Source of the DNA: Methylomicrobium sp.
GTDB taxonomy: Bacteria > Pseudomonadota > Gammaproteobacteria > Methylococcales > Methylomonadaceae
Assembly: GCA_007135635.1 (NCBI GenBank)
Contig: SLIO01000045.1
Coordinates: 1 to 14,502 of the forward strand
Length of the DNA: 14,502 nucleotides
Reading direction: 5' to 3'
Shown: piece after piece, positions 13,075-14,104 of the stretch
Layout: each line of letters opens with the position of its first letter
Numbering within the stretch: the first letter of the stretch is position 1
Notes under the pieces: model-generated
What the model was told of the DNA's origin: nothing
What the model saw: only the letters and a program-made list of their open reading frames with translations
Database searches by the model: none
Made by a program: the position numbers and the translations under genes

Positions 13075-13515
13075 ATGACCAAGCTTCCCGACGTCTCCAT
13101 GCTATCCCCGCATGAAAAAATACAACTTTTCGATTTGCTGAAAAATGAACTTCAAGAATATTTAAATGAAAGCGAAACAGCGCTGAGCTTTTATAATTTG
13201 AAAGTCACTTATGAAAATGTTCTTTGCCTAGCATCGGACAAGCATGAGGCGCTTGAAATTCTCGAGGAAAACATACAAAGCCTGTGCAAAGATTTCCAGG
13301 TTAATGAAGTAACTCTGATCGATTTAGTTAATTCCAGATACAACCTGATAGCGGACGATAAACTGCTCGCCGAGGAAATTAAGGACGATTTAAAAGCCTT
13401 GTGGGAATTAGAGGCGGATGGCCTGTGGAACAAGGAAAATTTGCTTACCTATTTTGACTTGATAAAGTCCGACCATGTGAAAAAACTGTTGCAACAGCAT
13501 ATAGACCAGTTTTGA
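13075..13515 (+). CDS. Hypothetical helical protein, 146 residues
   Basis: I do not recognise this protein. It is acidic, predicted entirely alpha-helical, without signal peptide or membrane segment, so probably cytoplasmic. The N-terminus has an EKIQLFDLLKNELQEYL amphipathic helix (about 14-30). The rest is Leu/Glu/Lys-rich with two tryptophans (in ALWELEADGLW, about 108-118) and cysteines in VLCLAS and SLCKDF. Codon use looks natural, and no competing frame fits as well. The SD is weak and the ATG at 13075 was chosen as the first in frame. It is followed within 75 bases by the MITE, and its upstream flank is non-coding, so its true partner genes are not visible. No toxin, antitoxin or immunity signature is evident. 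Confidence 0.65.
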   Translation: MTKLPDVSMLSPHEKIQLFDLLKNELQEYLNESETALSFYNLKVTYENVLCLASDKHEALEILEENIQSLCKDFQVNEVTLIDLVNSRYNLIADDKLLAEEIKDDLKALWELEADGLWNKENLLTYFDLIKSDHVKKLLQQHIDQF

Positions 13516-13581: not shown

Positions 13582-13741
13582 AAACAATCGTAAGTATTCA
13601 GTCCCCCTCTTTGAAAAAGAGGGGCTAGGGGAGATTTTTTAAATAAATCCCCCTCAATCCCCCTTTTTCAGAGGGGGAGGCCAACAATTACGTCTGAATT
13701 GCAGTAATTTGCCAACGGGGTCTGAATACTTACAAACAATC
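13582..13741. mobile_element. 144-bp IS66-type MITE with 8-bp target duplication
   Basis: The element proper is 13590-13733. Its ends are 17-base inverted repeats (GTAAGTATTCAG plus TCCCC / GGGGT plus CTGAATACTTAC) with one mismatch. The 8-mer AAACAATC occurs immediately outside both ends (13582-13589 and 13734-13741), a perfect target-site duplication. IS66-family elements typically begin GTAA and make 8-bp duplications, so this is best read as a non-autonomous derivative mobilised in trans by an IS66 transposase. No coding capacity exists inside. The interior carries nested CCCCTC/GAGGGG palindromes. Confidence 0.85.
13604..13677. repeat. Nested CCCCTC/GAGGGG palindromes inside the MITE
   Basis: CCCCTCTTT (13604-13612) pairs with AAAGAGGGG (13616-13624) across GAA. 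A second hairpin pairs CCCCCT (13659-13664) with AGGGGG (13672-13677). The two halves are also inverted relatives of each other through GGGGAGATTT and AAATCCCC. This C/G-block palindrome type is seen as dispersed repeats in many bacteria. It would fold into a strong RNA structure in either direction. Confidence 0.75.
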
Positions 13742-13756: not shown

Positions 13757-14104
13757 ATGAAAAATACTCTTGAAATAAAATGGCCTTGGGAAATGATCTG
13801 GATCGAATATGCGGACGAGATTATTGCCCAGATTAAGGAGGCTTTACCTCCGAATCATGAGATACAGACGCATGAGATATTCCCCGGAATCAAGTGGGAT
13901 CGACGCCCCATCTTTATCGTCGATGACGACACCACAGGGCAACGGATTTTAATGAACTTTGAAAAAATGAAACGATGGAAGAAAACGAAGTTCAAGGTTC
14001 CAACGATGAAGGTATTCAAAGACAACGCGGAAATTAGGGCAATGATGGAGAGCGACCACCTGGCGGAATGCGCAAAGTACAACAAGGATGGGAGTCTGAA
14101 ATGA
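13757..14104 (+). CDS. Hypothetical protein, 115 residues
   Basis: I do not recognise this protein. The frame opens at 13709, but those first 16 codons lie within or just past the MITE. The ATG at 13757, 16 bases after the target duplication, is therefore preferred. It begins MKNTLEIKWPWEMIW and has only a weak GAAG as SD. Residues 1-50 are mixed with several tryptophans. Residue stretch IFIVDDDTTGQRILM (about 52-66) looks like a strand-loop with three aspartates. Residues 67-84 are strongly basic (KMKRWKKTKFK) and could contact nucleic acid. The tail is acidic to neutral. The MITE inserted just upstream probably displaced or replaced its promoter. The function is unknown. Confidence 0.6.
   Translation: MKNTLEIKWPWEMIWIEYADEIIAQIKEALPPNHEIQTHEIFPGIKWDRRPIFIVDDDTTGQRILMNFEKMKRWKKTKFKVPTMKVFKDNAEIRAMMESDHLAECAKYNKDGSLK

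Follow-up and report, generated by a model that had tools for sequence, protein, structure and literature searches.

The analysed window, a stretch of 14,502 nucleotides, contains at positions 13590-13733 a real and precisely bounded mobile repeat, which is of an ordinary kind with an unusual filling. Very probably, this 144-bp element is a non-autonomous MITE of the genus to which Methylotuvimicrobium buryatense belongs and is moved in trans by a single-gene IS66 transposase of the ISBst12 type, with an 8-bp duplication. Reading of the sequence places the same octamer, AAACAATC, directly outside both ends (13582-13589 and 13734-13741). The left terminal inverted repeat, GTAAGTATTCAGTCCCC, which was delimited by sequence reading and the repeat search, occupies 13590-13606 on the forward strand; its right counterpart at 13717-13733 reads GTAAGTATTCAGACCCC on the reverse strand, and the top-strand letters GGGGTCTGAATACTTAC close the element at 13733. 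The two 17-nt arms are 94% complementary (16/17), are separated by 110 nt and both begin with GTAAGTATTCAG, that is with GTAA. The earlier note had described 17-base inverted ends with one mismatch and the 8-mer AAACAATC on both sides, which is correct to the base.

With its 144 bp, the element falls within the size range of 70-300 bp given for MITEs in PMC3733652. It lacks coding capacity: no DDE transposase domain (PF03050) was found inside it, and the only coding feature is a TTG frame of the downstream ORF that starts within the element. At most, it is an IS66 derivative and not an IS. As a repeat unit on the forward strand of 13590-13733, it recurs in the genome and in the genus. It is bordered by two ORFs, neither of which has a Pfam or NCBIfam match, namely a 146-aa ORF (13075-13515) on one side and a 115-aa ORF (13757-14104, forward strand) on the other, whose ATG lies 23 bp past the end of the MITE; an effect of the MITE on the latter is possible. 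Upstream of the element and of these two ORFs lie ORFs that carry an ApaG (DUF525) and a Metallophos domain, and we take the Metallophos-domain ORF to be ApaH-like.

The MITE is one member of a dispersed family. In its own assembly (G000; 2.78 Mb, 498 contigs, 79% complete), it matched 42 BLAST rows, counting partial rows and the reverse-strand rows of the palindrome, and nine two-ended copies, five of them with an exact duplication, were present in 20 own-genome stretches together with the window. Matches occurred in all six genomes of the genus and in 19 of 41 genomes in all, its own included. An exact 23-bp probe of the left end matched 58 stretches in the named genome collection, titled Methylococcaceae, Methylococcales, Methylobacter, Methylotuvimicrobium, Methylomicrobium or unplaced Gammaproteobacteria; no match was obtained among plasmids (blastn) or among viral contigs (one exact 23-base probe). 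For the count of copies, 69 end pairs were found in 81 stretches, 62 of which were kept for a MITE match of at least 80 bp, and the removal of four alternative pairings left 58 two-ended copies in the six genus genomes. This number excludes one-ended and truncated copies and the 80 fetched stretches are a part of the matches listed, so that the family comprises at least 58 copies. Among these copies, L266 (192 bp) possibly represents two ends that were paired in error.

The length of the target-site duplication is clearly defined, and shared octamers are more frequent than chance would give. Among the 58 copies, 30 have an exact duplication of 8 bp, 11 have one with a single mismatch and 17 have two or more mismatches. 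By length of the match at the boundary, an exact 8-mer was present in 30 copies and a 9-mer in one, and 4-, 5-, 6- or 7-mers were present in none, which agrees with the 8-bp duplication of the ISBst12 group; flanks of different copies paired with each other gave an 8-mer match in 3 of 3306 combinations. The 30 exact octamers all differ as written and represent 29 different sites, as GATTCAAG (L284) and CTTGAATC (L300) are reverse complements with shared flanks and thus mark one site in two genomes. Because the octamers are as AT-rich as their flanks (60% and 61% AT, respectively), no target motif is evident beyond the AT-rich spacers. Comparison of the flanks listed 25 copy pairs that share some flanking DNA, and in at least five pairs the copies seem to occupy one shared site of two genomes (L284/L300, L290/L314, L292/L339, L296/L306 and L269/L308); L265/L323 and L279/L321 have two rows each in this comparison, but their octamers differ. 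A search for short end pairs with an exact 8-bp duplication in 385 partly overlapping sequences (1.38 Mb) yielded 66 elements, and the control search of the same 385 sequences with the end motif read backwards yielded 0. The repeat family and its duplications bear out the reading of the earlier note as a mobile MITE with an 8-bp duplication, and the further copies it had expected, each with its own 8-bp repeat, were found at the 29 sites mentioned.

The positions of the copies were evaluated by rejoining the flanks of the 41 copies with no or one mismatch in the duplication. Only six of these 41 rejoined sites, the window's own among them, lie inside an open frame of at least 100 aa, as opposed to 386 of 620 points placed at random in these stretches. 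This fits the survival of copies outside genes; most likely, the MITE copies have no required host function and persist mainly between genes.

An empty site could also be identified. The downstream gene is present in one of the five other genomes of the genus, that of M. buryatense (G004), with 91% identity, and the alignment with this genome is gapless across the 60-column block that holds the rejoined flanks of the window. Therefore, the site there has the length of one octamer and the element is absent. An empty site in a relative, as foreseen in the earlier note, thus exists, although the octamer itself matches at 4 of 8 bases; AAACAATG occurs 3 bp to the left. The insertion is read as “fairly recent” because of the clean duplication and because the only relative with the site lacks the element. 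Dispersed copies occur in all six genus genomes, with one empty site, and the evidence as a whole indicates a MITE family that has moved within the genus after its species diverged.

The most probable partners of the MITE are found in sister species. The search with PF03050 found no IS66 transposase in the own assembly, which is 79% complete, and gave matches in all five other genomes of the genus and in 21 of 41 genomes in all. Eight rows in G002, G003 and G004 have 96-100% identity to the 527-aa transposase of L105, a type that matches both PF03050 and NF033517. Seven of them belong to IS66 elements of 1676-1678 bp (L105, L106, L111-L115) with GTAACTATTCAG[A/C]CCC at both ends, and five of these seven have exact 8-bp duplications (L113 and L114 are without a matching one); at the eighth row (L093/L116), ends of the form GTAACTATTCAG[A/C]CCC were not found. 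Their single-gene layout corresponds to that of the ISBst12 group in PMC12898284, where the published ISBst12-group element ISDge4 has the ends GTGACTACTCAGCA/GTAACTGCTCAGCA and an 8-bp repeat, and PMC3281130 tabulates two IS66 elements with a duplication of 8 bp. The MITE has GTAA-type ends and the 8-bp duplication in common with it, whereas it differs in the absence of a transposase, in its length of 144 bp as opposed to about 1.7 kb and in a G at position 5 of both ends. According to the mechanism proposed here, an ISBst12-type IS66 transposase would recognise ends that consist of GTAANTATTCAG and a C-rich stretch, and, acting in trans, would move the MITE while duplicating 8 bp of the target.

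The similarity of the MITE to these IS66 elements is confined to the ends. Its right end agrees with the IS66 ends at 16 of 17 bases, the IS66 ends of the genus having C instead of G at position 5, and the similarity of the window MITE stops after 17-19 bp; with permissive scoring, its right end gave no match to the IS66 elements. Under the same permissive scoring, longer matches to IS66 occur only in the variants L175, L185 and L186 from another genome and L333 from the own genome (26-32 bp at 78-87% or 41-42 bp at 73-76%). Since the window MITE matches over 17-19 bp only, its assignment to IS66 rests on the end sequence and the duplication length, not on the interior. None of the IS66 elements examined has GTAAGTATTCAG at both ends; the search for long elements with this exact motif at both ends was complete for G001, G002, G003 and G005 and covered G004 among the matches listed. 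A second IS66 group of the genus has GTAATCGTTTAG ends, with exact duplications in 11 stretches. The L105 transposase has matches with an E value of 0.001 or better in 62 of 151 genomes of the wider family, distant IS66 included, and in other genera four IS66 elements (L237, L238, L239 and L241) have exact 8-bp duplications and GTAA[A/T/G]TATTCA ends, L239 carrying GTAAGTATTCAC with G at position 5 at one side. The IS66-like ends and the duplication recognised in the earlier note therefore stand, as the IS66 elements of the sister species share the duplication length and have near-identical ends. Its expectation that a full IS66 element with the same ends moves the MITE from elsewhere in the genome held in part: such elements exist in G002-G004 with C rather than G at position 5, and none was found in the own assembly, which is incomplete. 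We infer that an IS66 transposase moves this MITE and that its source exists or recently existed in the own genome; the family has IS66/ISBst12-type ends and probable partner transposons in sister species.

It is very unlikely that a transposase of a different family moves the MITE and that the IS66-like ends are a coincidence. Such an origin would agree with the lack of IS66 in the own assembly, with an IS1182 element in G001 that lies between such ends with an exact 8-bp duplication, and with an IS110-type gene between two GTAAGTATTCAG ends in G003. However, three near-identical copies of the IS1182 element in G001 are without these ends, the IS110-type gene lies between ends that lack a matching duplication and that match the MITE at both sides, and IS66 alone, out of three transposon families detected in such a position, has these ends as its own boundary. 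The IS1182 element (L146:3514-5370; between GTAATTATTCAC and GTAACTATTCAG) was rejected as a partner: the DNA that it has in common with its other copies begins 25 bp inward of the left end and finishes 76-100 bp short of the right end, so that it is inserted in another MITE, which is palindrome-cored and keeps its own 8-bp duplication, TATTGATC. The second candidate (L159:1351-2968), 1618 bp in length between GTAAGTATTCAG ends, was rejected as an autonomous element because it is an IS110-type transposase in a MITE copy without a matching duplication. L163 from G005 has the same left flanking octamer as L159 and a different, shorter insert.

The unusual filling of the MITE consists of two REP-like modules arranged head to head. 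In each module, a C/G hairpin encloses a T/A-rich loop and precedes NTNAGGGG-type letters and GATTT. Module 1 (13604-13637, forward strand) consists of the hairpin CCCCTCTTTGAAAAAGAGGGG followed by CTAGGGGAGATTT, and module 2 has the opposite orientation (13645-13677), reading CCCCCTCTGAAAAAGGGGG and then ATTGAGGGGGATTT on the reverse strand. When 274 genomes of the class were searched for module 1 with up to three mismatches, nine matched, seven of them outside the genus (of 272 such genomes). There, the module occurs alone (L375), in direct tandem (L374 and L383) or in inverted pairs (L373 and L380-L382), and no IS66-type ends were found within 250 bp of the ten fetched non-genus loci. In ten of the module rows listed, a T of the first-block stem and its partner A change to C and G, and the third block is changed alike; these paired changes are as expected of a hairpin repeat, in rows that are limited to three mismatches and carry no statistical test.

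An inverted pair of hairpin modules, with its alternating orientation, is a feature that the interior shares with REP/BIME sequences, which raises the question of whether a RAYT (Y1) transposase mobilises the repeat as a REP/BIME, all the more so as Y1 transposase genes occur in all six genus genomes. Nevertheless, the repeat unit ends at IS66-type inverted repeats with 8-bp duplications, in which the module pair is enclosed, and such duplications are not known from REPs. Moreover, no Y1 transposase gene adjoins the MITE and the module was absent from about 1.5 kb around each of 30 Y1 loci (of 32 rows); no association of the hairpin module with RAYT genes was found in the genus. Mobilisation by RAYT is accordingly regarded as extremely unlikely, and transposition in trans by IS66 remains the preferred reading.

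Under the IS66 reading, REP-like repeats would have come to lie between two ends of the IS66 type. The other genera of the family have a short form, of about 103 bp, with the right end directly behind the module pair. The genus form is about 40 bp longer on the right, where the subterminal stretch (13681-13716, forward strand) is present in the genus-type form (about 144 bp) and missing from the short one. The start of this extra stretch, CCAACAATTAC, resembles the right end of the short form in a decayed state; judging from these letters, the genus form may have acquired a new right end. Among the cores of the 66 short elements with GTAANTATTCA[GC] ends and exact 8-bp duplications, 58 carry the CCCCTC/GAGGGG pair as in the window, 30 with the long right part and 28 without its 18-bp marker. 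The remaining eight comprise five GTTCCCACGC palindromes, one element with both cores, one of the TTCCGGCATGG type and one left unclassified by the script, which by eye is of the GTTCCCACGC kind; these proportions are no census, the sequences having been collected by MITE and IS66 matches. From their letters, the three cores (the CCCCTC/GAGGGG pair, the GTTCCCACGC/GCGTGGGAACG family and the TTCCGGCATGG type) appear to be unrelated; when the elements were clustered by similarity, chimeric matches and matches of the ends linked the first two. As at least three palindromic cores are bracketed by GTAANTATTCAG-like ends and exact 8-bp duplications, it may tentatively be considered that IS66-type (ISBst12) ends of these methanotrophs serve as a general vehicle by which IS66 transposases repeatedly capture REP-like palindromes and spread them, although this is rather doubtful at present.

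Several related arrangements were observed along the way. A second short element (L377, L285, L304, L120, L125 and L160), with GTAACTATTCAG/GTAATTATTCAC-like ends and exact 8-bp duplications, is 73 to 390 bp long, contains GTTCCCACGC-type palindromes and occurs in G001, G003, G004 and G005. L186:6491-6657 has a third core, with TTCCGGCATGGATTGCCGGAA, between similar ends and the duplication AAAAATTA. In L143, L300, L019 and L022, MITE copies from G000, G002 and G004, a repeat of about 47-70 bp (GACGACTG...GTTGCC) lies inside the first hairpin at about the same place. L161:1207-1842 from G002 is a 636-bp element with GTAAGTATTCAG ends and the exact 8-bp duplication AAACGAAT, in which extra DNA lies between the MITE left part and the right end. 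On contig 57 of G000 (L016:1431-1670), the hairpin pair lies between other inverted ends, CACTGCCATTAAGTTAAG...CTTAACTTAATGGCAGTG, and another element may therefore also carry it.

The palindromes give the MITE strong predicted folds on both strands, with z values of -7.7 and -7.3, as the earlier note had anticipated from the C/G blocks. Its further suggestion of a regulatory or terminator cassette found no support. That the repeat is a selected regulatory RNA or terminator cassette, which is incidentally mobile, would agree with these very stable folds, with the insertion 23 bp upstream of a start codon and with the position of the copies mostly between genes. However, a simple consensus scan found no terminator- or promoter-like site inside the MITE, the only match of the terminator scan lying outside it (13894-13911), and no Rfam family reached its gathering score; microRNA models alone matched, far below that score, and are taken as chance hits on the hairpin. 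The structure test used 50 of the 58 two-ended copies (eight were excluded because of their length, their identity or the length of their alignment) and gave hardly any covariation, the term being 0.37 with a double change in one of 29 predicted pairs, the copies being too alike for a strong test. For the 41 copies with neighbouring frames, called by length only, on both sides, the frames are co-directional in 29 cases, convergent in seven and divergent in five, and the MITE occurs in both orientations, with no preference for convergent genes. A selected cassette is hence considered quite unlikely, and a mobile repeat moved by IS66 is preferred.

Short, non-coding elements with IS-like inverted ends are known from other bacteria, and as far as the available descriptions go, MITEPsy1, MITEPsy2, MITECca01 and QMITE2 resemble the window MITE in these respects; for several bacterial MITEs, target duplication, intergenic location and folding are described as well. 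MITEPsy1, MITEPsy2 and MITECca01 are linked in these descriptions to ISPsy2, ISPsy30 (Tn3) and an IS982 element, respectively, whereas the ends of the window MITE are of the IS66 type. The main text of the MITE review PMC10969869 has 0 mentions of IS66, and no bacterial MITE tied to IS66 was found in the available portions of the literature searched. A description of the repeat itself was not found in the literature either, including a search for the literal 12-mer end; this search had most subscription papers and ISfinder outside its scope. The element thus adds a well-delimited MITE family with IS66/ISBst12-type ends to the group of methanotrophs to which the laboratory strain M. buryatense 5G belongs. 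If IS66-type ends were indeed a general vehicle, IS66 transposition, besides RAYT enzymes, would explain a part of the abundance of REP-like repeats, and if capture is real, it would offer a way, open to testing, for REP-like palindromes to spread independently of RAYT enzymes.
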